Counted from the stretch's first letter, positions 16,857 to 40,117 are shown. The stretch: DNA of 43,150 nucleotides from a virus (IMGVR_UViG_3300032770_000042:1-43150); one strand, 5' to 3'. Translations and numbers: made by a program. The notes: generated by a model not told the origin, from the sequence alone.

Positions 16857-16998
16857 CACCAACCGCCCCCCGGTCAACGCCTTCCCTTGTTCAAAGTTCG
16901 ACGTTCAACGGTTCAACAGTTCAACGGTTCAGCGCTCTGCCCCTCCGTTCCCTCCGTTCCCTCCTGTAAAAATTAGAAGTCCGACAGCCCCGCTCGCC

Positions 16999-17346
16999 TC
17001 AGCTTCCCGCCGGCGGATTCGCCGGCCCTGCAGGCGCGGCCGGCGCGACCGGAGCCGGCGCTCTGGGTGCCGGCCGCGGCACAGGCGGTGGCGGCAGCAC
17101 CTTCGCTGGCTTCGGCAGCGAGGCGTAAAGCGCGCGCTGCTGCTCAATCGGCAGCGCCCGCACCGCAACTCCAATCTGTGCATATAACTGCTTCGCCTCT
17201 TCCGCCTTGCGCCGGTCGAGCATGGCATCCAGGACTGCCGGCGACATGTTGGCCAGCATCTCTTGATGTTCGCTGCGCACGCTGATTGTCATCTGCACTC
17301 TCGAGGGCGCCGGCACGGCCGGCGCTGCTGTTGGTGTGTTATCCAT
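16999..17346 (-). CDS. Pro/Ala-rich small tail-region protein
   Basis: A 115-residue protein with a helical centre (MSPAVLDAMLDRRKAEEAKQ) and a C-terminal 40-residue Pro/Ala-rich tail. It lies between two large tail genes. It may be a linker or fibre chaperone. No family is recognised. Confidence 0.62.
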   Translation of the reverse strand: MDNTPTAAPAVPAPSRVQMTISVRSEHQEMLANMSPAVLDAMLDRRKAEEAKQLYAQIGVAVRALPIEQQRALYASLPKPAKVLPPPPVPRPAPRAPAPVAPAAPAGPANPPAGS

Positions 17347-17359
17347 AATCTATGTGTTC

Positions 17360-18613
17360 CTAAGGCCGATGCCCCCCAAATCCTCCAGCCGTAGCTAAGT
17401 AGGTGCCTGAACCAAATCCTCCCCCGGCAACCCACTCGTCAAAAGTCCCGTAATCCGCCACCAGGTAGATGCTCGTCTCGCTCGTCCAACCGTAGGCCCC
17501 CGCGATCGACAAGCTTTGTGTGATCTCCAGGCTGTGCCCGAGCGGGATGTCGATCACTTCTCCCGGGTACGAATCCGCCTCGCGTAAATTGGTCACCCCA
17601 TAGACCGTCCCAAATGTTGGCGGGCTCCCAAAGTAACCGGTAGCCGCGACCAACTCATAGATGAAGTAGTGCCACGACCCATTAAATCGAATTTTCCCCA
17701 ACTGCAAATTGAGGTCTCCATACGCGGCACCACCGTTCGTAATCGGAGCCGAGGCCGCCGCCCCGCCGACGTATTGCACAAAAGGCGGCGCTAGCCCATC
17801 CGCCCCCTGCACGTTGCCATAGGTTGAGATCGGCCTTTTGGCGTGCAACGCCCCATCCCACATGATCCCTCCCCAACCGGCGACATAGGCCGCCAACGCG
17901 CCCGGCGCCGTGTCAAAAAGTTGTGCCCCGCCGTAACTGCTGGTCGGAATAAAAGTGTCGCTCCCATCCAAAACAAACGCCCCCTCGCAGGTGTATAACT
18001 CGAAGCTCGCCGGCGTCACTCCCGTCGTCCCTCCCGGCACCTCGTCCCAGGCCGCATCCCAATCCACCAGCGCTTCCGCTCCGGACATCGTCGAAAGCAC
18101 ATCCCCATCAAACACCGGCCCGCTAAAGATCACCTGCAGAAATAAGTCGCCGGCATGGTGCACCCCGTCGTCGCCGTGATAGTAATAGTTCAAGGTCACC
18201 GACCCCGCCCCGCCGTCGTAAATAAAATCATCCGGCGCTCCCCACGCACCTGGATTATAACCGCCGAATACCGTTCCCCCGTTGCTGTCCGTGTAGCTCG
18301 GAATCCACGTGCCGGAGGCGTTGGTCGAAGTCGAGGTCGTCGTGGTGCCATCCGGATTATAGAAAGTAACCTCCAGCCCCGTCCAAGCCGTCAGCCAAAA
18401 CCATTGCGAATCATTGACCAAACCGCTCGGCAAATAAGCCACCGGTATCCCGTAAAGCGGCTTCGGCGACCGCACCGTCACGAACCGATAATCCACTCCG
18501 CTCCCGCCCCAAAGCAACATCGAGTCCGGGAACGGCGGCCGATACGCTGAATCCAACACCGCGCTCGGGTCCGGCCCCGACCACCCGCAATCGTATAACG
18601 TCCCCTCGCTCAC
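17360..18613 (-). CDS. tail or baseplate structural protein
   Basis: A 417-residue protein rich in Gly, Tyr, Trp and Asp, with no signal peptide. It was started at GTG 18613 because GTGA overlaps the previous stop; a TTG 21 bases upstream is the alternative. It is beta-rich throughout with no recognised enzyme motif. Its place after the tape measure and before the fibre suggests a tail-tip component. Confidence 0.7.
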   Translation of the reverse strand: MSEGTLYDCGWSGPDPSAVLDSAYRPPFPDSMLLWGGSGVDYRFVTVRSPKPLYGIPVAYLPSGLVNDSQWFWLTAWTGLEVTFYNPDGTTTTSTSTNASGTWIPSYTDSNGGTVFGGYNPGAWGAPDDFIYDGGAGSVTLNYYYHGDDGVHHAGDLFLQVIFSGPVFDGDVLSTMSGAEALVDWDAAWDEVPGGTTGVTPASFELYTCEGAFVLDGSDTFIPTSSYGGAQLFDTAPGALAAYVAGWGGIMWDGALHAKRPISTYGNVQGADGLAPPFVQYVGGAAASAPITNGGAAYGDLNLQLGKIRFNGSWHYFIYELVAATGYFGSPPTFGTVYGVTNLREADSYPGEVIDIPLGHSLEITQSLSIAGAYGWTSETSIYLVADYGTFDEWVAGGGFGSGTYLATAGGFGGHRP

Positions 18614-19164: not shown

Positions 19165-19173
19165 ACAGCGCTA

Positions 19174-19301
19174 GCGGTGCCGGCAATAGTGGTGCCGGCA
19201 TTCCTGCCGGCATGTTCACCGCCACAAACGTCCGCACCCCTCCGCGCTCTCGGTGTTCAAAGTTCAAAGTTCGACGGTTCAAGGTTCAAGGTTCAACGTT
19301 C
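19174..19301. repeat. intergenic repeats: CCGGC palindrome (C) and TTCAA tandem (A)
   Basis: Family C (GTGCCGGCATTCCTGCCGGC, palindromic) occupies 19174-19213. Family A (GTTCAAAGTTCAA, period 7-8) occupies 19254-19301. They fill the gap between two tail genes. Confidence 0.9.
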
Positions 19302-19312
19302 CCCTTGCTCCC

Positions 19313-20113: not shown

Positions 20114-20119
20114 ATTACG

Positions 20120-20199
20120 TAGTGGTGCCGCCCGTAGTGGTGCCGGCATTCCTGCCGGCATTCCCGGCTTCGGATTTCAGATTTCGGCTTTCGGGCTTC
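20120..20199. repeat. intergenic repeats C and E
   Basis: Family C palindromes (20120-20163) are followed by family E (CTTCGGATTTCAGATTTCGG type, 20166-20199), which reaches the stop codon of the tape measure gene. Confidence 0.88.
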
Positions 20200-21520
20200 A
20201 CGAGTGGGGATACGCCACATTATGCGCCGCGATCGCCAGCGCCAGCCTTCCCCCCGGCGTCATCATCAACGCCACCATCCGCGCCGTATTCATCGCCGTC
20301 TGCTGCAACAACTGCACCTTGCGCGCCTCGATGCGCCCGCTCACCCCCATGCCCCCCAGAAAATTCCCCACCTTCGTCATCGAATCCGAAATCCCAAACT
20401 GCAACGCCCCCTTCTTCGCCAGCGGCTGCAACGTCGCCTGGTGAAAATCGGGCAGCTTCGGGTGTTCCAAATCCTTGGCCGCATCCGCCAGCTTTTGCAG
20501 CACCGCCTGAAATTCCTTCTCTTTATCCTCCCAGGGCTTCTTCGCCTCAGCCATCGCCGTGCCCGCTCGCCCGAGGCGCTTTTCGTACTCGTCCATGAAA
20601 GCCTTCTCCTCCTGATCCGGTACGTGCGCGTCCGCGCGGAAAATGCCCCGATGACGCGTCTCGCCCGGCGTCGTCATCCCCAGGCCCTCGGCGAGCTCCG
20701 CTTGCCCCTTCAACCGCCGGTACCGGCCCTCGTCCAGAATCGCCGGCTGCACGCCCCCGGCATCGCCCACCAGCGACCCGGCGCCGGCCGCCCCTGACGC
20801 AATCGTCCCGCCCCACTTGAGCACGTGCTCATAAATCCACTCCGCCAACCTCACCAACGCCGGCCCGAGCTGCGCCGCGATAATCTGCGTGACCAGTCCA
20901 AGCTGGTCTCCAAGCTGCTTTAGTTTCAAAAGTGTCTCCGTGTCCGTGAGCGCTCCCAACTTCTTCATCTTGTCAGTCAGCTCCTCGAAATCCGTCTTCA
21001 GCACCGCCATCTCCGGCCCGAACCCCTTGCCCATGATTTCCTTGAACGCGATCCCCAACTCCTCCGGGTTCCCATTCTTCACCGCGGTGGCCAGCGGCCC
21101 CATAAAAAGCTGCGCGCTCGACTGCGACCGCAGCGCCTGCGGCGAAACCCCCAGTGCATTAAACGCCCGCCGCGCCTTGTCCCCCTCCTCGCCCGGCATC
21201 AGCGCCTTCTCGCGCGCGATATCCACCTTCTCGAAAGCCGACGCCAGTTTCTCCATCTCGACCCCGCTCTCCTTAGCCGCCTGGCGTAAGACCTGGAGCT
21301 GCTCCGGAGCGATCGCCAGCCGCTTGCTCGTATCCACCAACTCCGACGCGCTCTCGACCGTTCTCGAGATAGCCTGCTCCACCGTCGCCACCCCCACCGC
21401 CCCAATGACAAACCCCTTCAGCCCCTCCGCCAGCCCATGCACGGTCCCCTCCGCCTTCCGCATCCCGGCCTCAAACCCCGACCCATCCAGGCCCAACTCC
21501 GCCATCAGTTTCAGTCCCAT
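20198..21520 (-). CDS. tail tape measure protein (short)
   Basis: A 440-residue protein. A hydrophobic stretch near residues 34-50 (LKGFVIGAVGVATVEQA) is followed by long alpha-helical, Ala/Lys/Glu-rich sequence (ASELVDTSKRLAIAPEQLQ), typical of tape measures. It overlaps the upstream chaperone-like gene by 10 bases. At about 0.15 nm per residue it predicts a tail of about 65 nm, short for a siphovirus. Confidence 0.8.
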   Translation of the reverse strand: MGLKLMAELGLDGSGFEAGMRKAEGTVHGLAEGLKGFVIGAVGVATVEQAISRTVESASELVDTSKRLAIAPEQLQVLRQAAKESGVEMEKLASAFEKVDIAREKALMPGEEGDKARRAFNALGVSPQALRSQSSAQLFMGPLATAVKNGNPEELGIAFKEIMGKGFGPEMAVLKTDFEELTDKMKKLGALTDTETLLKLKQLGDQLGLVTQIIAAQLGPALVRLAEWIYEHVLKWGGTIASGAAGAGSLVGDAGGVQPAILDEGRYRRLKGQAELAEGLGMTTPGETRHRGIFRADAHVPDQEEKAFMDEYEKRLGRAGTAMAEAKKPWEDKEKEFQAVLQKLADAAKDLEHPKLPDFHQATLQPLAKKGALQFGISDSMTKVGNFLGGMGVSGRIEARKVQLLQQTAMNTARMVALMMTPGGRLALAIAAHNVAYPHS

Positions 21521-22413
21521 GCGCCCTCCTTGTTGGAAACCTTGTCGGCCGGAGCGCCGGATTCATCCGGCTTTGTATGTTCCCTCAGCCAGGCCTCCGC
21601 CTGCTCGCCCCCCGCCACCACCCGCACCCCCAGTGGTGCCGGCGCTAGTGGTGCCGGCATTCCTGCCGGCATTTTCTGACTTTGGCCTTTGGCCTTTGGA
21701 CTTTGGACTTCTTCATTCTGCAGTGCCTCTGCGAGCGAAGTCGGCACCGTCACGCCCGCCAGCGCCCTCGCATTCGCCTCCGCCATTTCCGTCTCCCCCG
21801 GCGCGATCAGTCGAATCAGCCCCTGCGACTCCGACCACTTGAAATAATCCGCGATCGCCTTGCTCAGCGGCGCCTCCTCGATTTCCTCCCGCGACCACCC
21901 GAGTTCACTCCGGAGCGTCACCTCCACCGAATGACTCCAATGCGCCCCCGACGCCATCCCATCACTGTTCTCCTCCCAGTAAGGAGGAATCGTCGCCGCC
22001 TCCTTCAGATAAAACCGAAACAACCCAAACTTCGCGAACAAGCTAAAATGCCGGTCCGCCTTAATCTCTTTGCGAATCCTTTTCCCCCACCGCTGAAACT
22101 CCCTCTGCAGCGCCGACCTCGGGCGGAGCGCGGCCTTTCCAGGCCGCAGCCCCCTCAGTGCCTCCCTGCCTCTGTGGTAAATCCCTTTCCGCCCCGTATC
22201 CTCGAGCAACCCCAGAAACTCCTGGCACCGCATCGAGCAAATGAAAATCCCCAGCAGCAAATCCGACACCTCCGCGTGCGTCTCCTCCTCCGACACAAAC
22301 GCCACCCCAAACCGCTTGAGCAGCCGGTATCTTCCCAACGAGAGAGAAAGAAGCTGAACCCCGAAAATCCGGAACGGCTCTGGAATGGCCGCTTTGAAGA
22401 CCGCGGCGTCCAT
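21511..22413 (-). CDS. tail assembly chaperone-like protein with repeat-derived insertions
   Basis: A 300-residue protein between the tail tube and tape measure genes, the usual place of tail assembly chaperones. The N-terminal 80 residues are helical (FRIFGVQLLSLSLGRY). Two segments come from repeat families read in frame: about 22124-22180 (YHRGREALRGLRPG) and 21631-21711 (QSPKAKGQSQ then MPAGMPAP). The extreme C-terminal region also contains a CCGG hairpin-type repeat (PDESGAPAD). No slippery frameshift site was found. Confidence 0.68.
   Translation of the reverse strand: MDAAVFKAAIPEPFRIFGVQLLSLSLGRYRLLKRFGVAFVSEEETHAEVSDLLLGIFICSMRCQEFLGLLEDTGRKGIYHRGREALRGLRPGKAALRPRSALQREFQRWGKRIRKEIKADRHFSLFAKFGLFRFYLKEAATIPPYWEENSDGMASGAHWSHSVEVTLRSELGWSREEIEEAPLSKAIADYFKWSESQGLIRLIAPGETEMAEANARALAGVTVPTSLAEALQNEEVQSPKAKGQSQKMPAGMPAPLAPAPLGVRVVAGGEQAEAWLREHTKPDESGAPADKVSNKEGAWD
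21631..21711. repeat. in-frame repeats C and D inside the tail chaperone gene
   Basis: Family C palindromes (21631-21673) and a family D array of GACTTTGG-like units (21676-21711) are translated without a stop as part of the protein. Confidence 0.88.
22124..22180. repeat. in-frame repeats H and B inside the tail chaperone gene
   Basis: A GCGGCCT...AGGCCGC hairpin unit (like the one at 32794-32816) adjoins a GCCTCCCTGCCTCTGTGG unit (family B). Both are read through in frame. Confidence 0.85.
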
Positions 22414-22420
22414 AAGTCGC

Positions 22421-22863: not shown

Positions 22864-22893
22864 AAGCCTCGGTGCCTCCGTGCCTCTGTGGTT
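22864..22893. repeat. family B repeat (GCCTCCGTGCCTCTGTGG)
   Basis: This 8-bp-period unit fills the gap between the tail tube gene and the upstream small gene. Confidence 0.85.
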
Positions 22894-23179: not shown

Positions 23180-23228
23180 GTTCAAAGTTCAGGGTTCAAC
23201 GGTTCGACGGTTCAACGGTTCAAGGTTC
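23180..23228. repeat. family A repeat (TTCAA tandem)
   Basis: GTTCAAAGTTCAGGGTTCAA continues as GGTTCGACGG units with a period of 7-8 bases, in the same orientation as all other family A copies. Confidence 0.9.
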
Positions 23229-23695: not shown

Positions 23696-23733
23696 TTCAC
23701 GCAACACGCAACACGCAACACGCAACACGCCTC
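23696..23733. repeat. heptamer repeat CACGCAA (family M)
   Basis: About five tandem copies of CACGCAA lie between two late genes. Confidence 0.92.
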
Positions 23734-24136: not shown

Positions 24137-24142
24137 AATAAA

Positions 24143-24166
24143 ATTGGAAATCGGAAATTGGAAATG
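24143..24166. repeat. family E repeat
   Basis: AAATTGGAAATCGGAAATTGG lies between the exported protein and the next upstream gene. Confidence 0.85.
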
Positions 24167-24814: not shown

Positions 24815-24861
24815 TTTGAAATCTCAAATCTCAAATCGCAAATCTGAAATCCAAAATTCAG
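24815..24861. repeat. family E repeat reaching a stop codon
   Basis: AAATCTCAAATCTCAAATCG units run up to the stop codon (24858-24860) of the upstream head-completion gene. Confidence 0.88.
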
Positions 24862-25172: not shown

Positions 25173-25174
25173 CA

Positions 25175-25244
25175 GGTTCAAAGTTCAACGGTTCAACGGT
25201 TCAGGGTTCAAGGTTCCGCGCTTCAACCCTTCAACGCTTCAACG
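25175..25244. repeat. family A repeat supplying a stop codon
   Basis: TTCAAAGTTCAACGGTTCAA units continue as CTTCAACCC/CTTCAACG. The stop codon of the upstream exported protein (25239-25241) is formed by a unit read on the minus strand (TTGAAG). Confidence 0.85.
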
Positions 25245-25952
25245 CGGCCCTATGGCCATCCACTGGAACCACCCATTCGTCACCGCGCTCCCAATGACCG
25301 CGTTCGTCGCCGACACACTCAACAGCGCCGCCTTCGAATTCGTGCTCGTATTGAACAGGACCGCCGGCGGCGACGCGAAACTCGGGGCAAACGCCAGCGT
25401 CGCCGTGGTCGCAATATTGGTGCTATAGGTCACCGTCCCCCAGCCCGCGGACAACGTAATCGCCGGCGCCAGGTTCGTAGCGGCCGTCAAGGTCAGCGCC
25501 GTGCTCGAGCTGAACGCCGCCGTCAGCCCGGCCACCGGATAATTCGTGAGAGCCACCAACAGGTTGGTCGCCGAGGTCGCCGTCGAATTCGTCGCCGGAA
25601 TCTGCGTCGCCGCGTTCACGATATTCGTGGACCACGTCCATGTCATCAGCGCGATCCCATCCAGGAGGATGGTCTGCCCGTTGGTCGGCGTCGCCGTCAC
25701 CGTCACCGTCGCCGTGATCGAGAAATCATTCGACACACTCCCCCCCTGCAGCGCCGACAACAGCCCAAGCTGTTTATTCGACAACGTCCACCGCGCGTAC
25801 TCATCCTGGAGGATCGAGGTCGTATCCAGCGACACCGTCGCCCCATTCCGAAACCGCTCCGTCACCCCCGACTTATCCTGCCCGCGCGCCAAACCCGTCA
25901 GCATCACTCCCAGCATTCCCATCACTCCCACCACTCCCAAAAAACGTTTCAT
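25239..25952 (-). CDS. exported Thr/Asn/Ala-rich late protein
   Basis: A 237-residue protein. MKRFLGVVGVMGMLGVMLTGLARGQ is a signal peptide with a cleavage-like ARGQ, preceded by AAGGA for ribosome binding. The mature part is Thr/Ser/Asn-rich and beta-like. It lies two genes after the major capsid. It may be a decoration or envelope protein. No family is recognised. Confidence 0.7.
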   Translation of the reverse strand: MKRFLGVVGVMGMLGVMLTGLARGQDKSGVTERFRNGATVSLDTTSILQDEYARWTLSNKQLGLLSALQGGSVSNDFSITATVTVTATPTNGQTILLDGIALMTWTWSTNIVNAATQIPATNSTATSATNLLVALTNYPVAGLTAAFSSSTALTLTAATNLAPAITLSAGWGTVTYSTNIATTATLAFAPSFASPPAVLFNTSTNSKAALLSVSATNAVIGSAVTNGWFQWMAIGPR

Positions 25953-25967: not shown

Positions 25968-26036
25968 CTTCAAAGTTCGAAGTTCAATGGTTCAAGGTTC
26001 AAGGTTCGTCTTCCTTGCGCCCTTGCGCTATCTCCC
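25968..26036. repeat. repeats A and I
   Basis: Family A (25968-26007) is followed by family I (CTTGCGCCCTTGCGC). The family I unit supplies the TAG stop (26028-26030) of the upstream gene. Confidence 0.82.
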
Positions 26037-26453
26037 CCCCAGGTAAGTCACCGTCACATTCACATTTGTCGTCGCCCCCGCCACCCGGGCCCGGAACCAG
26101 CTCCACTTCCCCGTGAGCGTCACCTCCGCGAAATTGGCATTCGTGAAACTGTTCGTGCTCCACTCCACCCAGTTCACGTTATCCAGGCTCCGCCCCAGAT
26201 ACACCGTGTTCGTCGGGCCCACGCTGTTGTTCGTCAGCCCATTCACCACCCAAAACGTGTGATACGTGCTCTTCTCGAGAAACACGCCCGTCCCCGTCAC
26301 ATTCGTGCTCGCCTGCAGCACCGTCGCATTCACCGTCCCCGCCTCCTGGGCCAGGGGGAAATCCGTCCCCTGTGCCCGATGCAGCAACGCCACCGCCGTC
26401 AGCACCGCCAACCCCAGCAGCAGCCCCCAAGTCCGATTCTTCACGTCGTTCAT
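26028..26453 (-). CDS. exported or membrane-anchored late protein
   Basis: A 141-residue protein beginning MNDVKNRTWGLLLGLAVLTAVALL, a signal or anchor. The mature part has Trp-rich beta strands (RSLDNVNWVEWSTNSF, GKWSWFRARVAG), resembling the C-terminal strands of host-type extracellular proteins. It lies next to the capsid decoration candidate. The function is unknown. Confidence 0.68.
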   Translation of the reverse strand: MNDVKNRTWGLLLGLAVLTAVALLHRAQGTDFPLAQEAGTVNATVLQASTNVTGTGVFLEKSTYHTFWVVNGLTNNSVGPTNTVYLGRSLDNVNWVEWSTNSFTNANFAEVTLTGKWSWFRARVAGATTNVNVTVTYLGGR

Positions 26454-26477
26454 AAAATCAGTCCGTCTGGTCCCTTC

Positions 26478-26516
26478 CCCCATCCGTGTCCATCCGTGTT
26501 CATCCGCGGTTAAAAC
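26478..26516. repeat. family K repeat (CATCCGTGTC)
   Basis: Three units of a 10-bp period (CATCCGTGTC, CATCCGTGTT, CATCCGCGG) end in TTAAAA. Confidence 0.9.
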
Positions 26517-26997: not shown

Positions 26998-27062
26998 ATC
27001 GGAGCGCCGGCTTCAGCCGGCTTTGACTTTGTTTCTCTGCTCTCTCTGTGCCTCGGTGGTTA
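26998..27062. repeat. repeats G and B between capsid and decoration genes
   Basis: GGAGCGCCGGCTTCAGCCGG (hairpin, family G, 26998-27024) is followed by a family B unit that reaches the capsid gene's TAA (27060-27062). Confidence 0.88.
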
Positions 27063-28055: not shown

Positions 28056-28116
28056 TGGGGAGCGCCGGCTTCAGCCGGCTTCGTGAGAATTCGCTGCTTG
28101 GCGCCTTTGCGTTAGT
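28056..28116. repeat. repeats G and I
   Basis: A family G hairpin (28056-28080) is followed by a family I unit (GGCGCCTTTGCGTTAG) that supplies the TAA stop of the upstream coiled-coil gene. Confidence 0.82.
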
Positions 28117-28604: not shown

Positions 28605-28648
28605 TGTTCAAAGTTCAAAGTTCAAGGTTCAACAGTTCAACAGTTCGG
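28605..28648. repeat. family A repeat
   Basis: GTTCAAAGTTCAAAGTTCAAGG and further units fill the gap before the exported gene. Confidence 0.9.
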
Positions 28649-28969: not shown

Positions 28970-29063
28970 CCGTTCAAAGTTCAAAGTTCAAGGGTTCAAT
29001 AGTTCAACCGTTCGTCTTTTCCCTTGCGCCAGCCCTAGTGGTGCCGGCATTCCTGCCGGCATA
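28970..29063. repeat. repeats A, I and C
   Basis: Family A (28970-29012), a short family I remnant, and a family C palindrome (29035-29062) fill the gap before the protease gene. Confidence 0.88.
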
Positions 29064-29915: not shown

Positions 29916-31750
29916 AAGCGCCTCACCCCTTTAGTCCCTTTCGTCCCTTTAGTCCCTTCCCGACCGGAGCTTGGTGTTTGGTCTTTGGTGTTTGTTTCCT
30001 GCGGTTCCTCCCCCACCTCCTCCTGCTCCTTGTAAGTGAAGGTCGCCGTCCCAATCTTCCCGAGCTCGAGCAACGCCTCCTGAATCGAAATCCCAAACTC
30101 ATCCGCCAACTTCTTGGCCCGCGTCAGCTTGTCCCGCACCTCAATTTCCCGCTGGTCCCGCTTCAGCCGCCAATCCCCGTTCCGTTTCTTCTCGATGTCC
30201 TCGAGCGTGGACCAGCCCGACTCGAACTCCATCAAATCCGTCTGCGCTTCGTAACGCCGGTCGGCCGTGATATCCGGCGGCCCTTGATAGTGAAGCTTGT
30301 ACCACTCCGCATCGAACGGCAGTTCCCCGGTCGCCATCGCGCCCCTAGCCAGGCCGTAACAATCCACGCGTCGCATCGCCTTGCGCGGCACCCGCCGGCG
30401 CTTGCGCAACACCCGGTTCACCTTATCCACGATCACCCGCAGCGGCGCCCCGCCCACGTGCTGCGGGTCCAGCGAAAAGAACATGTCCCACTCACTGCCG
30501 CGGAACGCATCCCGAATCGTCGTTTCGAAAAACGTGTGCGAATTCTCCCCCGGCCGGTTCCAATCAAACGGCGTGAGCTTGCACCCCTGCCTCGCTTTGA
30601 AAATGGAGTAGGTCCCGCCCTCCGCCTTGACCCTATCCGACTGCAGCCGCTGTTGCGGCACCACGTTCCCCTGGGAATCTTTGACCGGCAGCCCGTCGCT
30701 CCCGAGGACCAGCTCCGAATACTGCGCCGGCGACACAAGCTGTTTAGCCGCATCCAGGTCCCCCGTTTCGTTCTCCTCGATGATAGTTCGGCTGGAGAAT
30801 AACTTTTGCGCAACCAACTCAAACCGCTTCCGCTCCGCCGCATCCTCCCAGTCGAAAACGCTCGATGCCAGCAGCGAGATCCCGCGCAACTGCCCCGGAA
30901 AAACCGGCAAAAACGACAGAAACATCGACCTCGCCGAAATGTCCCTGTAAGTGGACGAGACCACCGGATCGTCATACACCCGGTAAGCAATCGCCCGCGC
31001 CTGGTCATCCACGATGACCCCATCAATGATCGGCGCCTCCCACTCCACCGCCGCCGCCACCCTCCACGGCACCGCCGCATCAATCAACTTGTCATCAATG
31101 AACAGCGAGCTAGTCCCACCTTGTGTCCCTTGTGTCCCTTCCGTCCCTTGCGGGCTTTGGACTTTGGACTTTGGACTTTGGCCCCCGCCCCCGTTCGGCA
31201 CATACCGCACCTTGCACGCCCCTCCCGTCTGGTACCTACTCCCAATCCTATGACTAGGAATAATCTGTATCCTAGGATTCCCCTGCCCATCCTCGGTGAG
31301 CAACGTCCCCATCTCCCCATCCACTAACCAGGAGATGATTAGTAGTTCCCTATAAGTCTCCGCATCATACGGCGGCCCAGCCAGGTCCAGCACCTGGTGC
31401 CATTCCTCGAGCCACGCGCAAGCCAGGTCACCCCACTCCTTATTTTTCCCGCCGAACCGTGGCGTAAACGTATCCACCGCCAGAGTTGCCTGCTCCAGCA
31501 CCATCCCCATCAACGCCGGATACTTCCAGAAAATGACGCGCGCCATCGAAAGCAGCAGCCTCCGTCCCTGGACCGAAATTGTCCGGTGAATATCATAGTC
31601 AACCAGGGTGGTTTGCTGCCTATCCGGCGACGGCGTCGCCGCCTCAATCAGCGTATTATTGAAGCCGTAAGTGACCCCGCCATTAATCGTCTTAAACGGC
31701 AACTCCGCCCGTTCCAGCGCCAAATCCACCGACGACTTAATCGCGCTCAT
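29912..31750 (-). CDS. portal protein (lambda gpB-like) with repeat-derived insertion
   Basis: A 612-residue portal of the Phage_portal_2 type, forming the ring through which DNA enters the head. IIPSHRIGS and later DGVIVDDQARAIAYRVYDD are family-typical. Between them, residues about 191-212 (QSPKSKVQSPQGTEGTQG) are translated from repeat arrays D and F (31115-31180, 66 bases, exactly 22 codons). The last 35 residues (TKDQTPSSGREGTKGTKGTK) also derive from repeats, yet the ATGA coupling with the protease is kept. It was started at MSAIKSS. Confidence 0.88.
   Translation of the reverse strand: MSAIKSSVDLALERAELPFKTINGGVTYGFNNTLIEAATPSPDRQQTTLVDYDIHRTISVQGRRLLLSMARVIFWKYPALMGMVLEQATLAVDTFTPRFGGKNKEWGDLACAWLEEWHQVLDLAGPPYDAETYRELLIISWLVDGEMGTLLTEDGQGNPRIQIIPSHRIGSRYQTGGACKVRYVPNGGGGQSPKSKVQSPQGTEGTQGTQGGTSSLFIDDKLIDAAVPWRVAAAVEWEAPIIDGVIVDDQARAIAYRVYDDPVVSSTYRDISARSMFLSFLPVFPGQLRGISLLASSVFDWEDAAERKRFELVAQKLFSSRTIIEENETGDLDAAKQLVSPAQYSELVLGSDGLPVKDSQGNVVPQQRLQSDRVKAEGGTYSIFKARQGCKLTPFDWNRPGENSHTFFETTIRDAFRGSEWDMFFSLDPQHVGGAPLRVIVDKVNRVLRKRRRVPRKAMRRVDCYGLARGAMATGELPFDAEWYKLHYQGPPDITADRRYEAQTDLMEFESGWSTLEDIEKKRNGDWRLKRDQREIEVRDKLTRAKKLADEFGISIQEALLELGKIGTATFTYKEQEEVGEEPQETNTKDQTPSSGREGTKGTKGTKGVRRL
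29926..29996. repeat. repeats F and D forming the portal C-terminus
   Basis: GTCCCTTTCGTCCCTTTAGT (family F) and a TTTGGTCTTTGGTGTTTG array (family D variant) are read in frame as the end of the portal. Confidence 0.85.
31115..31180. repeat. repeats F and D inside the portal gene
   Basis: GTCCCTTGTGTCCCTTCCGT units and GGACTTTGGACTTTGG units make an in-frame 66-base insert. Confidence 0.9.
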
Positions 31751-31911
31751 AAAACCACAGAGACACCGAGACACAGAGAGGAGAGGACCTCCGAAAACCT
31801 CTCAAATCTGAAATCTGAAATCTGAAATTCCCTCCGTGCCTCCGTGCCTGCGTGGTAAAAATTCATGTCTGGTCTTTGCACCTTTGCGCCCTTCGCGCCC
31901 TTCGCGTGAGC
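31751..31911. repeat. repeats B, E and I between portal and connector genes
   Basis: A reversed family B unit (AACCACAGAGACACCGAG), family E (AAATCTGAAATCTGAAATC), a forward family B unit and family I (CTTTGCGCCCTTCGCGCCC) fill the whole gap. No promoter or gene is seen. Confidence 0.85.
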
Positions 31912-32202: not shown

Positions 32203-32547
32203 TTCACTGCTAGCCCCCGGTCAATGGGGCCCGCCTTCAAAGTTCAAAGTTCAACGGTTCAGGGTTCAACGGTTCAGGGTTTAGGGCTCCCCTCTTCCCC
32301 GTTTTAACGTTTTAACGCCTCCCCAGTTGACTATTCTCCCCAGGCAACCGCAGTACCTCCCCCAAGGGCGCCGGCCGAAGGGTCGCGCGCCCTTTTTGTT
32401 GCCTGGATTCACCACCGAGGCACAGAGACACAGAGACGGGAACGGGGAAAAGGCAAGCCGCCAAGCGTCACTCTTTTCGGCCCCAAACAGTGACGCTTGC
32501 TGGTCCTCTCTGTGCCTCCGTGCCTCTATGGTTCCCTTCCCAAAAGT

Positions 32548-32784: not shown

Positions 32785-32838
32785 CCGTGCCCGGAGCGCG
32801 GCCTGTCAGGCCGCAGCCTTACAGACGCCTTCTCCGAT

Positions 32839-32985: not shown

Positions 32986-33228
32986 ATGGACATTTGGCCG
33001 GGAGATTGGGCCGCGGGAACCCCCGTCGAAATCACCCATACGCCTTACGCCGGCGAGCTCGGGCTCGTAGTGAACTGGAAGGCCGAGTGGGGGATCCCTC
33101 GCCGGGGCCTGGTCCCGGTGTGGATGCCCTCCTATCGCTACACGTTCTTCTGGTGGATGCCGCCCTTTGGACTGAAGGCATTGGACCGCTTCCACCCAAG
33201 CTTTGACTACCTGAAATCCCACGCATGA
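32986..33228 (+). CDS. aromatic-rich moron protein
   Basis: An 80-residue protein rich in Trp, Tyr, Phe and Pro (GLVPVWMPSYRYTFFWWMPP). It runs against the late operon and is joined by ATGA to the Tat-signal gene, so the two are made together. It was probably acquired as a unit (a moron). The function is unknown. Confidence 0.62.
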   Translation: MDIWPGDWAAGTPVEITHTPYAGELGLVVNWKAEWGIPRRGLVPVWMPSYRYTFFWWMPPFGLKALDRFHPSFDYLKSHA

Positions 33229-33680
33229 AGCTTTCCCGCCGCCGCCTCCTCCAACTCATCCCCTTCGCCCCGCTCGCCGCCAAGGCCCTCGCCGGCATAA
33301 AACTCCCGGCCCCGCAACCATCTGGGACAGATCCGAAACCCATTTGTCGCCCAATCGGCCCCGGCCCACGCTGGATCTGGACCACCATTGAACCCCAAGT
33401 GGAAGTCGTTAGGGACCACAACGGCATCGAGGTCGCCTGGATCTGGTCCAGCGAGCTGCTCCGCGGCGAATGCTTCGCCCACAACCCCATCCAGTTCGGC
33501 GAGACAGTCTCTCACAACCTCCGTTCCTATCAGGTTCTACAGAGCATAAACACTCTGGTCACCAACAAGGACTTTCCCCACGGCCACATTTATTGCGTCA
33601 GACTGTTGGCCAAGCGATGGTTCAGCGCTCGGGAAGATGGTCCTTTCAAACTCTCGGATTTCTCGAAAAGCTCTGTCTGA
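33225..33680 (+). CDS. Tat-signal exported moron protein
   Basis: A 151-residue protein beginning MKLSRRRLLQLIPFAPLAAK, a twin-arginine signal. The mature part (WIWTTIEPQVEVVRD, then YQVLQSINTLVTNKDFPHG) matches no family I know. Tat export implies a protein folded before transport to the periplasm. Expression from its own promoter could alter the host cell surface in a lysogen. Its last 91 bases overlap the end of an opposite-strand gene. Confidence 0.68.
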   Translation: MKLSRRRLLQLIPFAPLAAKALAGIKLPAPQPSGTDPKPICRPIGPGPRWIWTTIEPQVEVVRDHNGIEVAWIWSSELLRGECFAHNPIQFGETVSHNLRSYQVLQSINTLVTNKDFPHGHIYCVRLLAKRWFSAREDGPFKLSDFSKSSV

Positions 33681-33887: not shown

Positions 33888-33962
33888 TTGGTGTTTGGTA
33901 TTTGGTGTTTTTCCCCGTTCAACGTTCAACGGTTCAACAGTTCAAGGTTCAACAGTTCGTCT
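33888..33962. repeat. repeats D (variant) and A
   Basis: TTGGTGTTTGGTATTTGGTG is followed by GTTCAACGTTCAACGGTTCA units, filling the gap. Confidence 0.88.
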
Positions 33963-34992: not shown

Positions 34993-34994
34993 TC

Positions 34995-35402: not shown

Positions 35403-35434
35403 TGGTATATTACTTATGATTTGCGTAACTCTCC

Positions 35435-35755
35435 TTAGCGCCCTTTGCCCCCTTTGCGTGAGGCAAGCAGTTTTCGCCGTTGCCCCGCCCGAACCCTCCT
35501 CATCCACTGCACCGCCTTCTTCAGGTAGCACGGCCGTCCCGCCGGGCCGCGTCCTTTACGAAAAGGCCCATGACCGCAGCGCCCGCTCCAATGCCCATGC
35601 CCGCCCCCGCCATCGGCCAGGTCATACACCGGCAACACCCGCAGCGCGGCCGCCAGGCGCGCGAACGTCCCCTCCACGCCCCCCGGCAAAATCTCCCCGC
35701 GCACCATTCGGTGACTGCGGTCATACTGCCACCCATGCTTCCGAAAAATCCTCAT
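35435..35755 (-). CDS. basic hypothetical protein
   Basis: A 106-residue protein beginning MRIFRKHGWQYDRSHRMVRG, started at the ATGA overlap with the acetyltransferase gene. The end is Lys/Arg-rich. A second frame over 35521-35622 encodes a 34-residue peptide with one membrane helix (MAGAGMGIGAGAAVMGLFV), so this stretch may hold two overlapping genes. Confidence 0.5.
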   Translation of the reverse strand: MRIFRKHGWQYDRSHRMVRGEILPGGVEGTFARLAAALRVLPVYDLADGGGGHGHWSGRCGHGPFRKGRGPAGRPCYLKKAVQWMRRVRAGQRRKLLASRKGGKGR

Positions 35756-36216
35756 CTCCGGAGCCCCTTCCGTCCCTTCCGTCCCTTTAGTCCCTTCCCC
35801 CTTTGCGCCCTGGCTTTGGACTTTGGACTCTGGACCTTGGACTCGGTGCGGCCGCCCACCTCCAGCTCCCAATCCAGCGACCTCGGATTCTTCCGAAACC
35901 CCATCTTCACCAACCACGGCCGGCTGAACCGCGTCCCCGCGGCCGTGATGATTTTCCGCGTCTTCGGAAACCCCTCGAGCAACTTATGATGCAGCCAGGT
36001 CCGGACCCCGCATCGCCGCGCGCTCTCGCGCACGAAACTGTATTGAATCTCAATCGTCGAATTCCCCGCGTGACAAAACCACACGATCCCAATGGGCGCC
36101 GCCGTCGATTCATGCCGCGCCTCGATTGTCCGCGTCCCCGGGCACGTGGACTCCCCCCAGGCATAACTCAGCCCCCGCCGCGCCTTCAGCTCCGTTCGAA
36201 ACCAATTCTCAGTCAT
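35752..36216 (-). CDS. GNAT-family N-acetyltransferase
   Basis: A 154-residue protein. GIVWFCHAGNSTIEIQYSFV is followed by the acetyl-CoA motif RRCGVRTWLHHKLL and by AAGTRFSRPWLVKMGFR, the GNAT fold. The C-terminal 30 residues (SKVQSPKSKARAQ then KGLKGRKGRKG) come from D and F repeats. The start is the ATGA overlap with the upstream regulator. The substrate is unknown. Confidence 0.72.
   Translation of the reverse strand: MTENWFRTELKARRGLSYAWGESTCPGTRTIEARHESTAAPIGIVWFCHAGNSTIEIQYSFVRESARRCGVRTWLHHKLLEGFPKTRKIITAAGTRFSRPWLVKMGFRKNPRSLDWELEVGGRTESKVQSPKSKARAQRGKGLKGRKGRKGLRR
35757..35852. repeat. repeats F and D forming the acetyltransferase C-terminus
   Basis: GTCCCTTCCGTCCCTTTAGT (F) and CTTTGGACTTTGGACTCTGG (D) are translated in frame. 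Confidence 0.88.
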
Positions 36217-36854
36217 TGTGTAGTAGTGCCGGCATTCCTGCCGGCATTCTCGGGTGCCTTCCTGCCGGCATTCTCGGCCGCATTCCTGCCGGCATTTTGG
36301 GACTTTGGACTTTGGACTTTGGACTCCAGGCTTTCGACTCTCCTGGGCCTCCGATTCGACAGCCTGCTCTTCGCCCCCGTCTCCTTCTTCCTCATGTACG
36401 GCGACGGCGGCAGCCCCAGGTAAGCGCAAATCAGTTCACACCGTTGCGACACGCAGGCCTTCGTAACCCCCCACTGCCGCCCAAACTCCGTCATCGAAAC
36501 CCCGTCCGCATACCCGTCCCCCGTCGCGATCAGATAGCACCCGAGCGTGAACTTGGAATTCCGCGCATTATGCACCATCAAAATGAGCCGCCGATAAAAC
36601 TCGATCCTCGACAGTGACGACCGACGCGCCGTCTCTGTCCCCCCTTCCGCATTCCGCATTCCGCACTCCGCATTTCCTGCCGGCCGTCCCTGCTCGTCCA
36701 CCGCCCCGCTCGCCTCGACGTGCCCGCAGCAATCAGGGCAGATCGCATTCACCGTTTGGCCGCACCGCGGACAGAACCCCTCGAGCAGATGCTCCGCCGG
36801 ATGGTCGCTGGTCGCCGCCTGTGGCAGCTCCGCTGGATCGCCGCGCGTAATCAT
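36213..36854 (-). CDS. zinc-ribbon and HTH regulator with repeat-derived segments
   Basis: A 213-residue protein. CPRCGQTVNAICPDCCGH (about residues 28-45) is a zinc ribbon; SMTEFGRQWGVTKACVSQRC (about 117-138) is a helix-turn-helix. Repeat-derived stretches are NAECGMRNAEGG (family L, about 60-71) and the last 38 residues (ESKVQSPKS, NAGRNAAENAGRK; families D and C). It likely controls transcription of late genes. Ribosome binding (GAAGAGGGG) lies in a family F array. Confidence 0.7.
   Translation of the reverse strand: MITRGDPAELPQAATSDHPAEHLLEGFCPRCGQTVNAICPDCCGHVEASGAVDEQGRPAGNAECGMRNAEGGTETARRSSLSRIEFYRRLILMVHNARNSKFTLGCYLIATGDGYADGVSMTEFGRQWGVTKACVSQRCELICAYLGLPPSPYMRKKETGAKSRLSNRRPRRVESLESKVQSPKSQNAGRNAAENAGRKAPENAGRNAGTTTQ
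36224..36333. repeat. repeats C (three palindromes) and D at the regulator C-terminus
   Basis: Three GCATTCCTGCCGGCATT units are followed by GGACTTTGGACTTTGG units, all translated, ending at an ATGA stop-start. Confidence 0.9.
36645..36675. repeat. family L repeat (CATTCCG heptamers) in the regulator gene
   Basis: Four CATTCCG-like heptamers are read as NAECGMRNAEG within the protein. Confidence 0.88.
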
Positions 36855-36855
36855 C

Positions 36856-36936
36856 GCCCCTCTTCCCTTCGGTCCCTATGGTCCCTTGTGTCCCTGCCGT
36901 CCCTTCGGCCTTCGGATTTCAGATTTCGGATTTCCA
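36856..36936. repeat. repeats F and E
   Basis: GTCCCTATGGTCCCTTGTGT units and TTCGGATTTCAGATTTCGG fill the gap between two late genes. Confidence 0.88.
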
Positions 36937-37494
36937 TCAATCCCCCGTTGGCGTTCCCTCATTGATAAACCCCGAGGGCCGATTCCCCTGCGCCCGCCTC
37001 ATCTCCCACATCCCCATCAAAGCCCGCAGCACCCGCCGCTCGAGCGCCAGGGCCGCCAGCTCCCCCAAAGCCACCCTCAACCGCCGCACCGTCTCCTCCG
37101 CCGTCAGTAGTGGTGCCGGCATTCCTGCCGGCATTCTCGGACGCATTCCTGCCGGCATTTCCGGCCCCTGGCCTTTGGCCCTTGAACTTTGAACGCCCCG
37201 TTCCTCCGTGGTTGAAACCTCGGCCGCCGCGCAATACCCCTCCGGCGGCAACTCCGGCTCATACCTCGATTCCTCGGCGGCCGGCTGCGCGGATTTCAAA
37301 TCTCCAATTTCCAATTTCGGATCTTCCTCCGTGCCTCCGTGCCTCTGTGGTTTCTCCCCCTTGTCCATTTTTGCCGCCTCAGACGAGCTCTCGGAAATGG
37401 ACATTCCCCCCGCCGGCGCCGCCCTCCTGGAGGCCAGCGCCATCCGCACCTCCTCCGCCGACCCAAACCCCGCCGCTGACAGCACCGGTTCCAT
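36937..37494 (-). CDS. hypothetical late protein, one third repeat-derived
   Basis: A 185-residue protein whose ATG overlaps the previous stop (TGATG). The unique parts are helical (ETVRRLRVALGELAALALER). Two internal blocks come from repeats: KPQRHGGTEEDPKLEIGD (families B and E, 37292-37353) and QSSRAKGQGPEMPAGM with MPAGMPAP (families A, D and C, 37107-37195). No family is recognised. Confidence 0.6.
   Translation of the reverse strand: MEPVLSAAGFGSAEEVRMALASRRAAPAGGMSISESSSEAAKMDKGEKPQRHGGTEEDPKLEIGDLKSAQPAAEESRYEPELPPEGYCAAAEVSTTEERGVQSSRAKGQGPEMPAGMRPRMPAGMPAPLLTAEETVRRLRVALGELAALALERRVLRALMGMWEMRRAQGNRPSGFINEGTPTGD
37107..37195. repeat. in-frame repeats C, D and A
   Basis: CCGGC palindromes, CTTTGGCC units and one TTGAACTTTGAAC unit are translated within the 185-residue protein. 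Confidence 0.86.
37292..37353. repeat. in-frame repeats E and B
   Basis: TTTCAAATCTCCAATTTCC and CCTCCGTGCCTCCGTGCC are translated within the same protein. Confidence 0.86.
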
Positions 37495-37586: not shown

Positions 37587-37642
37587 GTTCAAAGATGCGG
37601 GGGACGAGCTACCCTGGGTAACTCGCCCCCCGCCTGGTTGAA

Positions 37643-37921: not shown

Positions 37922-37924
37922 GGT

Positions 37925-38010
37925 CTTTTTTTCCTTTCGTGTTTTTCGTGTCTTTCGTGGTCTCCCCCTTCAAAGTTCAAAGTTCAACAGTTCAAGGTTC
38001 AAGGTTCGTC
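37925..38010. repeat. repeats J and A
   Basis: TTTCGTGTTTTTCGTGTC units (period 9-10) and CTTCAAAGTTCAAAGTTCAA units fill the gap after the large terminase. Confidence 0.9.
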
Positions 38011-38017
38011 TTCCCAT

Positions 38018-40117
38018 TCACGTCGCGACTTCCGCCTTCTCCCTCGAGCTCAGCCTCTCCATCGCCGGGTCCGGCACCAGGTCAGCCAGGATGGCCCCCA
38101 GCACCTGCTGATTAGCCAGGTCCCGCGCGTGATCATTCTTGGACTCCTTCCAAAACACCTTGGTTTGTCCCGTGCGCGCATTGAACTCCGTCTTGCGCAC
38201 CCGGGCCGCCATCTGGAGCGCGTATTCCTTTTCCATGTCGGCGTCATCCGTATTCAGCGGTTCCTCCCAATGCCCGTGGTCAATGAGCTCCTGCACCTTC
38301 TGGTTGAGCTGCGGCTTCGAGAAAATGATTAGCGGACAATACTTCCGGCCAGACGACCCCGAGCCCGGGTCACCCCACGTCATCGGCGCGTAAGCCTTTT
38401 GCACCGTCCGCCGCGGCTGCCCCGCCGGCGTCTTTAATCGGTGGGTGAACGAATCCTCATTGCTGCCGCGCACGGCAATCCACCCGTACTTCAAGCAAGC
38501 CGCATAAACCCCATGGTCCCCCTTGGGCAGAAAGGCCGAATCACAAAACGCCCGGTTCGCCGGCACCTTGTATTTCTCCCGGAGCACCTCGAGGGCGGCG
38601 AACCCGTACGCCTTGCCGAACCCGAGCCGTCTGGTTTTACCGACGCCCCAGGCCCGCACCGACCACCAATACAAATCCTCCTCCTGCCGGTCCGCCGAAA
38701 AGAACCTGGCTTTTTCCTCCGGCCAATCCGACTCGATGACGTACTCCGTCCGCTTGAAATGCAGCCCCCCCTTAAGCAGCGACTCCTCATCCTTAAACAT
38801 CGCCCGCCGCTTCTGGTAGAACTGGAGCTTCGGCTTGAGGTCCCCTCTCCTCTCGGCATTGCAAGCGTCGAGCCACAACTCGACCAGCTCGTCCCACGGA
38901 AAATCAATCACCGCCTCCCAATGAAACGAATCAATCTTCCCCTCCCACTCAGAAGGGTGACGAGTGACGAGTGACGAGTGACGCGGGGCGCCTTCTCCTG
39001 GGGCCGGGATACTGTTCAAATGATCAGTATCCAGCCCACCACTAGCCATTTGGATAGTAGCCCCCTCCGTTTCAGCATTCTGCCTTCTGCCTTCTTCCTT
39101 CCCCCTCAGTGCCTCCGCGCCTCCGTGGTTCCCTCCCCCTCCCCCACTCCGCATTCCGCCTTCCGCATTCTGCATTCGCCGCCACTGCCCCGTCCGATTC
39201 CACTCCCCCTTCGTCCGCGCCCCCTCGAGCATCGGATACTTGCAATGCGGGCATTCAAACCGGATCGTCGGCAAACACTTTGGGATGTCCCAGTCCCCGC
39301 TCGGCAACCGGTAATGATTCCACGTGATGCCCCAAAAACTCCCGTCCACCCGCTGCCCGGAGAAAATCGGGTCGAAGTACCTCCGACACTCCGGATTCAA
39401 ACACTGCACCTCCCACTCATGCAACAGCCCGCGATGATAATGCCGGAACCAATCCGACTCCTCCATCTCGACCCCATCCTTAGGCCCTCCCTGTGAAATG
39501 CAGAGCACCTTGCTCGTCTGCATCTTCAGGTAATCCCCGATGCGCCCCATCGCCTCCCCCATCTTGCCCTGGTCCCACATCCACACCTCCTCGAGCCGCA
39601 AGTACCGGATGCCTTTGGCCTGCAAGTTCCCCAGCGACGGCCCGCGCACATACCACGTGTGCCCGTGGTTAAACAGAATCTCGTCATCCCGCTGCTTGTG
39701 TCGGTTCGCCGGGAAGAGCGCCGCGACCGGCGGACACTTTTCAAAAATCCGTTTGATGCGTTCCTCCGCGTGGTCGCTCGCGACCTTCTCCGTCTGGAAC
39801 ACATCCATGTAGGGCCCCGGATCATTCGCCAGCGTCCAGGGACAGAACACATCCCCAATCAGCGACCCGCCGCCCCGGACCGGCTTGAGCACATTCACCC
39901 CCCGCTTCCGATCATTCTGGAGCGAATCGAAGATCTGCAGGAAGTGCCGCGAATCCGAGCAATCGAAAAAACCGGTCTTGGTGATGGGCGGCGACAACCA
40001 CACAAACTCGTGGGCCCACTCCGGGATCGGCCGCCGGTCCCTCGGTACAAAAATCGAATGCCACTCCTGTCTCAGATCATTCGGGCTTCGGATTTCGGGC
40101 TTCGGAGTTGCCGTCAT
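38018..40117 (-). CDS. terminase large subunit (lambda GpA-like) with repeat-derived insertion
   Basis: A 699-residue packaging motor and nuclease. ATPase part: an unusual P-loop VLKPVRGGGSLIGD and a Walker B-like YLRLEEVW. A CLNPECRRYF...CPHCK zinc site follows near residues 240-310. Between TGQWRR and KIDSFHWEAV lie about 75 residues translated from repeat arrays (38950-39175; NAEGGMRSGG, HGGAEALRG, SSLVTRHPS). Codons 4-12 also come from a family E unit (PKPEIRSPN). The ATG lies in an ATGA overlap, five bases after AAGGAG. Confidence 0.88.
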   Translation of the reverse strand: MTATPKPEIRSPNDLRQEWHSIFVPRDRRPIPEWAHEFVWLSPPITKTGFFDCSDSRHFLQIFDSLQNDRKRGVNVLKPVRGGGSLIGDVFCPWTLANDPGPYMDVFQTEKVASDHAEERIKRIFEKCPPVAALFPANRHKQRDDEILFNHGHTWYVRGPSLGNLQAKGIRYLRLEEVWMWDQGKMGEAMGRIGDYLKMQTSKVLCISQGGPKDGVEMEESDWFRHYHRGLLHEWEVQCLNPECRRYFDPIFSGQRVDGSFWGITWNHYRLPSGDWDIPKCLPTIRFECPHCKYPMLEGARTKGEWNRTGQWRRMQNAEGGMRSGGGGGNHGGAEALRGKEEGRRQNAETEGATIQMASGGLDTDHLNSIPAPGEGAPRHSSLVTRHPSEWEGKIDSFHWEAVIDFPWDELVELWLDACNAERRGDLKPKLQFYQKRRAMFKDEESLLKGGLHFKRTEYVIESDWPEEKARFFSADRQEEDLYWWSVRAWGVGKTRRLGFGKAYGFAALEVLREKYKVPANRAFCDSAFLPKGDHGVYAACLKYGWIAVRGSNEDSFTHRLKTPAGQPRRTVQKAYAPMTWGDPGSGSSGRKYCPLIIFSKPQLNQKVQELIDHGHWEEPLNTDDADMEKEYALQMAARVRKTEFNARTGQTKVFWKESKNDHARDLANQQVLGAILADLVPDPAMERLSSREKAEVAT
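38950..39178. repeat. repeats N, L, B, L inside the large terminase gene
   Basis: GTGACGA heptamers (38957-38983), CATTCTGCCTTCTGCC (39068-39095), a family B unit (39107-39131) and CATTCCGCCTTCCGC (39150-39178) are all translated. A GATACTG/CAGTATC inverted repeat lies between them. Confidence 0.88.
40079..40105. repeat. family E repeat at the terminase N-terminus
   Basis: CGGGCTTCGGATTTCGGGCT is translated as PKPEIRSPN near the start of the large terminase. Confidence 0.85.

Follow-up and report, generated by a model that had tools for sequence, protein, structure and literature searches.

How do short repeats of the kind found in bacterial chromosomes come to crowd one half of a compact phage genome? 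The question is raised by IMGVR_UViG_3300032770_000042, an IMG/VR record of an uncultured metagenome contig of 43,150 bases (the window, meaning this whole stretch of DNA), in which short tandem arrays and small palindromes are concentrated between 16.9 and 40.1 kb. The contig ends overlap by 126 bases within an 18-bp tandem array, so that the window probably represents a temperate tailed phage assembled as a complete circle. The explanation favoured here, which we consider fairly probable, is that a host-type repeat vocabulary, consisting of heptamer arrays and of repetitive extragenic palindromic (REP) elements tagged with GTGG or GGAG, was inserted into the phage as preformed blocks with replication polarity and was filtered by reading frame.

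Repeat families of the late half

Tandem Repeats Finder (TRF) returns 94 rows for the window, which were merged into arrays before counting. Between 16.88 and 40.12 kb there are 59 arrays (34 intergenic, 23 genic, and two at gene edges) versus seven elsewhere (binomial p = 7e-10 by length); for intergenic DNA alone the counts are 34 arrays in 3,311 bp of the late part versus one in 2,211 bp elsewhere (p = 4e-7). Repeats with periods of 5-30 bp cover 81 bp/kb in the late part, 6 bp/kb between 0.1 and 16.9 kb, and 2.7 bp/kb in dinucleotide shuffles. A single motif, GTTCAAAGTTCAA, has 22 matches in the window at one mismatch or fewer, where 0.01 are expected. Period 7 is the largest class (about 22 of the 59 late arrays), followed by periods 8 and 9. 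An earlier note on this DNA had described at least 12 families concentrated in this part of the genome; the concentration is confirmed, equal density in the early region is not seen in the window, and the count rises to at least 14 tandem families plus three palindrome classes. The note also placed arrays in nearly every gap, which is right in that the gaps are dense with them, but 23 arrays lie inside genes and some gaps have none.

The tandem families have units of 7-9 bp, most commonly heptamers: GTTCAAn(n), CTTTGGA, CTCYGTG, CCCTTnnGT, CCTTnGCG, GATTTCn, ATTCCGC, AAATTGG, TTTGGTG, TTCGTG, CACGCAA, GTGACGA, TTCTGCC, CATCCGTG, and CCCTCCGTT. Loose clustering of units (two mismatches or fewer) falsely merges GTTCAAA with GTCCAAA, the reverse complement of CTTTGGA, and window orientations from that clustering were not used. 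The three REP-like palindrome classes are GTGG-TGCCGGC (REP1), GGAG-CGCCGGC (REP2), and GGAG-CGCGGCC (REP3). In REP1 the terminal tetranucleotide GTGG (GTAG once) precedes TGCCGGCATTCCTGCCGGCA at 19189, 20137, 21648, 29038, 36223, and 37110, as in REP elements, for which the tetranucleotide variants GTAG, GTGG, and GYRG have been given (PMC2817692, PMC3733652). GGAG as the tetranucleotide of the other two classes is our own, tentative reading. The palindromes also form stable hairpins, as REP elements do (folding z of -4.1, -5.2, and -2.4), and the tandem arrays are unstructured as RNA. Judged by sequence, both GTGG with TGCCGGCATTCCTGCCGGCA and GGAG with CGCCGGCTTCAGCCGGC have REP architecture, that is, a tetranucleotide and a hairpin.

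An Rfam scan of the window matched no family, and the exact palindrome GTGGTGCCGGCATTCCTGCCGGCA has zero matches in viral contigs; its sole exact 24-mer match in 11.3 million genome contigs, apparently within a Stenotrophomonas coding sequence, was judged to be chance, as were the weak matches that were all BLAST found for array-rich stretches against phages and plasmids. Three consecutive GTTCAA units are present in more than 118 viral stretches and in none of 299 Pseudomonadota genomes, and the GTTCAA family is therefore at least not general in bacteria.

Recent insertion relative to sister phages

Eleven viral loci whose capsid protein is 69-82% identical to that of the window serve as sisters. 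None has the GTTCAA arrays of the window, and a search of these loci for sixteen window families gives one match only, a CTTTGG doublet in G006. Sister G005 (and G009, with the same genes) carries largely different arrays, of AACTTTA, CACTCCG, TTTGAAA, and AAATCGT; a relaxed pattern links its CACTCCG arrays to the ATTCCGC family of the window. The joint between the minor gene and the portal gene measures 137 bp in the window versus -4 to 47 in sisters, that between the capsid gene and the next gene 77 versus 8 to 56, the one that follows this next gene 94 versus 17 to 70 (in sisters where both genes are adjacent), and that between the tape measure gene and its neighbour 48 versus 3. Within the portal, a 28-codon insert (GGGGQSPKSKVQSPQGTEGTQGTQGGTS) sits at a single point and the flanking sequence aligns with the sisters. 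The terminase has inserts of 24 and 49 codons, each at one point and in frame, in the linker between the ATPase match (residues 63-314) and the C-terminal part, which realigns from residue 399. Since sisters this closely related lack these families and the portal and terminase inserts, and have narrower joints, the alignments identify the arrays as recent insertions relative to the sisters. Gain and loss of families among sister phages, as the earlier note had anticipated, is thus borne out by the sister searches, the joint widths, and the set of arrays peculiar to G005.

Copying of preformed blocks

An alignment is possible for ten GTTCAA arrays, and several of them begin with GAC-GAAC. On the coding strand the units follow a trend from CTTGAAC through CGTTGAAC to TTTGAAC TTTGAAC, and unit identity by position is 0.227 versus 0.111 with units shuffled inside arrays (reached in 0 of 5000 shuffles). 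Several arrays also end alike (GTTCGTCTTCC), homology ends near the array edges, and the CTCYGTG family has a common ending, GTGGT. Because unit order and ends are conserved among GTTCAA arrays and the CTCYGTG ending is common, the sequences argue that preformed blocks were copied and that independent slippage did not produce them. A candidate conserved flank upstream of the GTTCAA arrays (CGTCAACGC) is no better than chance.

Strand polarity and patchiness

Orientation agrees with the family majority for 48 of the window's 54 elements, which is matched by one of 100,000 random assignments, and GTTCAA arrays are oriented 10:1. The late genes of the window are all on one strand; the single orientation relative to late transcription that the earlier note claimed for most families therefore holds as a predominant orientation, but in this phage transcription is inseparable from genome strand. 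The two are separated in IMGVR_UViG_3300044711_000125 (G011, loci L185-L187), a phage of 46,315 bases found through two shared repeat families. G011 resembles the window in HerA (about 70%), two small genes (54-57%), and integrase (35%), differs in its head module (terminase 22%), and has at least six families in common with it. Its homology-supported early genes are on the minus strand and its late genes on the plus strand, and 13 of its 99 arrays are in 4-8 kb of the early block. Same-family array pairs of G011 number 192 in the same versus 0 in opposite orientation, 73 of 74 arrays have the majority orientation of their family across both blocks, and GC skew is positive in both (0.27 and 0.33). 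Since the arrays keep one orientation across oppositely transcribed blocks with skew of the same sign, array polarity follows genome strand, not gene direction.

Among the other viral contigs, strong skew goes with placement on the C-rich strand for CTTTGG (8:0) and CTCYGTG (6:0). Where skew is slight (G014-G017), array orientation is mixed, and inverted GTTCAA neighbours are common among the other contigs (28 pairs at distances of up to 200 bp). G014, G015, and G016 each have 40-70 heptamer arrays that point both ways, and in G015 and G016 neighbouring arrays are opposed, unlike the one-way arrays of the window and G011.

Arrays are found throughout the early block of G011, and none are found in the homologous block of the window. 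In G017 (IMGVR_UViG_3300047185_000031) the tail block at 0-15 kb is free of arrays and the head block has many. Because the early block of G011 holds arrays and the tail block of G017 does not, late-only location is no rule; the patchiness of arrays follows modules. G017 also carries heptamer arrays of TAACTGA and ACTGATC, the former being the repeat of Beggiatoaceae and cyanobacteria.

Reading-frame filter and accessory-gene joints

Arrays open in all three coding-strand frames account for 17 of the 23 genic arrays of the window versus 13 of the 34 gap arrays (p = 0.014), and GTTCAA arrays inside open reading frames (ORFs) of other contigs take the stop-free orientation 50:5. In the window, 8 of the 11 GTTCAA rows of TRF have stops in all three of these frames, and none of the ten direct GTTCAA arrays is inside a gene. 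Reading-frame selection thus filters the arrays.

The accessory segments at 25.24-25.92, 28.66-28.92, and 32.3-33.9 kb, which are missing at the homologous joint of the sisters, each lie between two direct GTTCAA arrays. All ten direct arrays border an accessory gene and none is at a core-core joint (10 of 17 versus 0 of 7 joints, p = 0.019, in small numbers and with core and accessory labels given after the pattern was seen). A secondary role of GTTCAA arrays as recombination joints is a possible lead. The family of gene 25239-25916, whose position differs among sister phages (in G002, for example, it is on the other side of gene 26028-26483), is apparently mobile.

Comparison with known repeat systems

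Both kinds of repeat are, as the earlier note said, known from bacterial chromosomes, as heptamer arrays and as REP-type palindromes. Bacterial heptanucleotide simple sequence repeats include the heptamers of Xanthomonas and Nostoc (PMC4692102) and the TAACTGA repeats of Beggiatoaceae and cyanobacteria (PMC4679880). The window arrays are likewise short tandem heptamers with few copies per set, mainly intergenic, stop-free inside ORFs, and patchy among lineages, and they agree with the definition of long simple sequence repeats (direct units of 5-11 nt in tandem, most often heptamers). A bacterial chromosome, however, has one or few such families, whereas this 43-kb phage has more than 12, together with ordered block copies, genome-strand polarity, and clean inserts in virion genes. 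The palindromes resemble the REP elements associated with REP-associated tyrosine transposases (RAYTs; PMC2817692, PMC3733652) in that GTGG or GGAG is followed by a 20-24 bp GC-rich palindrome that occurs in several copies, also in ORFs; unlike those, they are in a phage, with no RAYT in the window, and occur alongside tandem arrays that share their polarity.

The tandem repeats of Borgs (PMC9879509) are also pervasive, recent repeats of an extrachromosomal element, found in gaps and ORFs and giving repetitive peptide segments, but their units are perfect and in ORFs are multiples of 3 nt, whereas the window has shared families, scattered along the genome, of imperfect 7-9 nt units, inside ORFs too. 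The Start-Associated Sequences of cluster K mycobacteriophages (PMC3203893) are short repeats in one genome half, almost all of them oriented alike. They consist, however, of one 13-bp motif located 3-7 bp before start codons, conserved among relatives, and in the non-structural half; the window has many 7-9 bp families, not conserved among sisters, which are often inside genes or lie tens of bases before a start codon. Halovirus HF2 (PMC8707807) has repeats in viral intergenic regions, but these contain promoters and keep their positions across the genus, neither of which is seen in the window phage. A literature search with the repeat sequences themselves gave nothing relevant, and further searches found no paper on heptamer repeats in the genomes of Verrucomicrobia, Planctomycetes, or phages. 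Heptamer repeats and REP elements of bacterial chromosomes are known, and what appears new, as no description was found in the literature searched, is that both together saturate a phage, that arrays are copied as blocks, that polarity does not depend on genes, and that portal and terminase have clean in-frame inserts.

Origin and spread of the arrays

A repeat vocabulary of bacterial intergenic type would thus have colonised the late half of a temperate phage. The source of the preformed blocks, of 25-60 bp, would be other arrays in phage or host chromosome, not growth in place, and we infer a host chromosomal origin. Insertion is strand-polar, with the blocks of a family pointing one way, matching strand composition skew, whatever the local gene direction. 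Copying onto single-stranded DNA would fit this polarity, with insertion taking place at the replication fork; the candidate enzyme for the palindromes is an HUH single-strand transposase of the RAYT kind, and tandem blocks may arise by template switching or lagging-strand annealing. Selection would purge blocks that break genes, such that survivors are found in gaps, at gene ends, and as stop-free in-frame linkers of virion proteins. Confinement to the late half would here reflect module history, the array-free early block probably being a newer or cleaner module. A more far-reaching proposal, possible but doubtful, is that an undescribed single-strand copying process in one bacterial group (probably verrucomicrobial) and its phages inserts preformed micro-arrays of many families into DNA under replication, always with the same strand polarity and even cleanly inside essential virion genes, and that their orientation records replication direction.

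Several observations weigh against insertion of preformed blocks with replication polarity. The test of polarity independent of gene strand comes from one contig, G011. The orientation rule fails for some families, as GATTTC arrays of the window are oriented 3:3, and GTTCAA arrays of other contigs follow no rule with respect to skew (15:12). The window encodes no Y1 (RAYT-type) transposase (no PF01797 match); the transposase may be encoded by the host. The predominance of heptamers is also compatible with a contribution of slippage, and gene calls for the window are our own and approximate.

Late transcription was one of the two links that the earlier note suggested for spreading, the other being recombination with the host, and a view related to the first is that the arrays serve late expression as terminators, processing sites, or promoters. 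Late-only location in the window, a mostly single orientation antisense to late genes, and strong folding of the REP hairpins (z -2.4 to -5.2) agree with this, but early-block arrays in G011 are oriented as in the late block though the genes are reversed, the tail block of G017 has none, the tandem arrays are unstructured as RNA and occur also within coding sequence, and Rfam matches are absent, which together contradict the transcription link and leave it distinctly unlikely. Selected recombination joints, in which same-family arrays bracket accessory genes for cassette swapping by homologous recombination, are somewhat easier to defend, if still unlikely: three accessory segments bracketed by direct GTTCAA arrays have little or no gap in sisters, all ten direct arrays border an accessory gene (p = 0.019), and the gene 25239 family is placed elsewhere in sisters. 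Against this, numbers are small and labels post hoc, other families are at core-core joints and inside genes, and neither excision nor exchange has been seen.

Another explanation, reportedly put forward by Mrazek and colleagues in 2007, is that heptamer arrays grow in place by polymerase slippage, with no block copying. Period 7 is indeed commonest, and over-representation of heptamers is known in bacterial genomes (PMC4692102, PMC4679880). Independent local slippage would not, however, give distant copies the same unit order and array ends, set several families side by side in one portal insert, orient arrays uniformly across a genome, or produce palindromes at all, and we regard it as very unlikely. 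Still harder to credit is that GTTCAA arrays are kept between genes as translational insulators, for their stops in all three coding-strand frames. The closed frames of most GTTCAA rows and their 10:1 orientation would suit such a role, as would the orientation of arrays between tandem genes in other contigs (61 opposite versus 36 same), but upstream genes already end in stop codons, the remaining families lack stops, and the bias elsewhere is mild. The window being an uncultured contig, an assembly artefact or host contamination also has to be considered; its probability is negligible given about 59 arrays over 23 kb with conserved ORFs intact on both sides and inserts in frame, an end overlap as in a complete genome, and the same phenomenon in the independent contigs G011 and G005.

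Features of the phage genome

Table 1. Repeat elements between 16.9 and 40.1 kb and recognised genes of the window.
Feature	Position	Strand	Remarks
GTTCAA array	16889..16931	+	Start of distal tail-gene segment 16.9-19.3 kb; TRF
CCCTCCGTT array	16941..16964	+	TRF; family also in G011 as GGAGGGAAC
REP1, GTGG + TGCCGGCATTCCTGCCGGCA hairpin	19189..19212	+	
GTTCAA array	19255..19301	+	TRF
REP1	20137..20160	+	
GATTTC-type array (TTCGGAT)	20169..20194	+	TRF
REP2, GGAG + CGCCGG hairpin	21551..21571	+	Within window-only C-terminal extension of gene 21511-22413
REP1	21648..21671	+	Within same extension
CTTTGGA array	21678..21710	+	Within same extension
REP3, GGAG + CGCGGCC hairpin	22125..22147	+	Overlaps window-only in-frame insert, gene 21511-22413
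CTCYGTG array, end CTCTGTGGTT	22866..22890	+	TRF
GTTCAA array	23180..23228	+	TRF
CACGCAA array, 4.7 perfect units	23698..23730	+	TRF
AAATTGG array	24141..24165	+	TRF
GATTTC-family array, reversed (AAATCTC)	24819..24855	-	TRF
GTTCAA array	25174..25244	+	Left border, accessory gene 25239-25916
GTTCAA array	25969..26007	+	Right border, accessory gene 25239-25916; outer genes adjacent in several sisters (gap 0-1)
CATCCGTG array	26480..26506	+	TRF
REP2	27001..27021	+	Between capsid gene and next gene
REP2	28059..28079	+	
GTTCAA array	28606..28646	+	Left border, accessory gene 28658-28915
GTTCAA array	28972..29013	+	Right border, accessory gene 28658-28915; gap 27-34 in most sisters
REP1	29038..29061	+	
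CCCTTnnGT + TTTGGTG arrays	29927..29994	+	Portal C-terminus
Portal insert, 84 nt (CCTTGTGTC + CTTTGGA arrays)	31109..31192	+	Clean, 28 codons; missing from 6 sister portals
Four successive arrays (CACAGAGA, TCTGAAA, CCTCCGTG, CCTTCGCGC)	31756..31906	+	Portal gene start and upstream
GTTCAA array	32236..32286	+	Left border, accessory segment 32.3-33.9 kb
Inverted CTCYGTG array pair (CACAGAGA ... CTCTGTGCCTCCGTG)	32413..32526	.	
REP3	32793..32814	+	
GTTCAA array	33917..33958	+	Right border, accessory segment 32.3-33.9 kb; sister gap 23-42 in most
CCCTTCCGT + CTTTGGA arrays	35765..35843	+	Inside gene 35752-36216
Window-only C-terminal extension of gene 36213-36854	36216..36329	+	Built of REP1 copies and CTTTGGA array
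TTCCGCA array	36621..36674	+	Overlaps window-only in-frame insert (aa 67-78), gene 36213-36854
CCCTTnnGT + GATTTC arrays	36864..36934	+	TRF
REP1 copies	37110..37159	+	
Lone inverted GTTCAA copy	37182..37194	-	
ATTTCCA + CCTCCGTG arrays	37293..37349	+	TRF
CTTTCGTGT array, then GTTCAA array	37934..38007	+	
Terminase large subunit inserts with GTGACGA, TTCTGCC, CTCYGYG, TTCCGCA arrays	38930..39172	+	24 and 49 codons
GATTTC-type array	40080..40106	+	Window-only N-terminus of terminase
HerA-like ATPase gene	223-1620		
HNH endonuclease gene	6614-7441		
Integrase gene	9172-10563		
Tape measure gene	20198-21520		
Major capsid gene	27060-28046		
S49 protease gene	29085-29915		
Portal gene	29912-31774		
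Terminase large subunit gene	38018-40123		Pfam ATPase match aa 63-314
Terminase small subunit gene	40114-40755		
Mu Gam-like gene	40879-41412		

Among 50,697 isolate-phage records, the only relative of the capsid protein is that of Akkermansia phage Chantilly (35%). In Opitutus terrae, a member of the Verrucomicrobia, most GTAG-20 elements carry GTGG, and this is the species with most intragenic GTAG REPs (PMC3733652). Because of these two links, a verrucomicrobial host is plausible, though not proven. A tRNA 3'-end-like sequence at 10823-10862 (GGGTTCGAGCCC and acceptor stem) is the likely attP and could point to the host; ARAGORN found no complete tRNA there nor elsewhere in the window. The palindrome GGAACAATTGTTCC is present at four sites with one mismatch or fewer (10572, 10948, 32547, and 32874; 0.13 expected at two mismatches or fewer), of which two flank the presumed attP beside the integrase gene and two are upstream of a plus-strand gene pair at 33 kb; these palindromes are probably phage repressor operators. 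The pair (32986-33680) consists of two overlapping plus-strand genes within the minus-strand late operon, the second beginning with a Tat-signal-like MKLSRRRLLQL, and may be a moron expressed in lysogeny.

The 18-bp tandem array at the contig ends, TCATAGGGTTCGGCTGGC, occupies 1-139 and 43025-43150, and the ends of G002 likewise carry a tandem array, of 15 bp. The early genes 3100-3561 and 6614-7441 have homologs of 55-56% that among sisters are found only in array-bearing G005.

Significance

Where the short repeats of intergenic DNA come from, heptamer arrays and REP elements among them, and how they spread has long been an open question. In chromosomes such insertions date far back, and one seldom knows the ancestral site. 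A compact phage provides a natural experiment: sisters reveal the sites without insertions, the reading frame is set by essential proteins, and polarity can be tested in related phages. Should the polarity rule extend to further phages, array orientation would be evidence for movement onto single-stranded DNA at replication forks and would mark the direction of replication in uncultured phages, and a common repeat vocabulary would tie a phage to its host.

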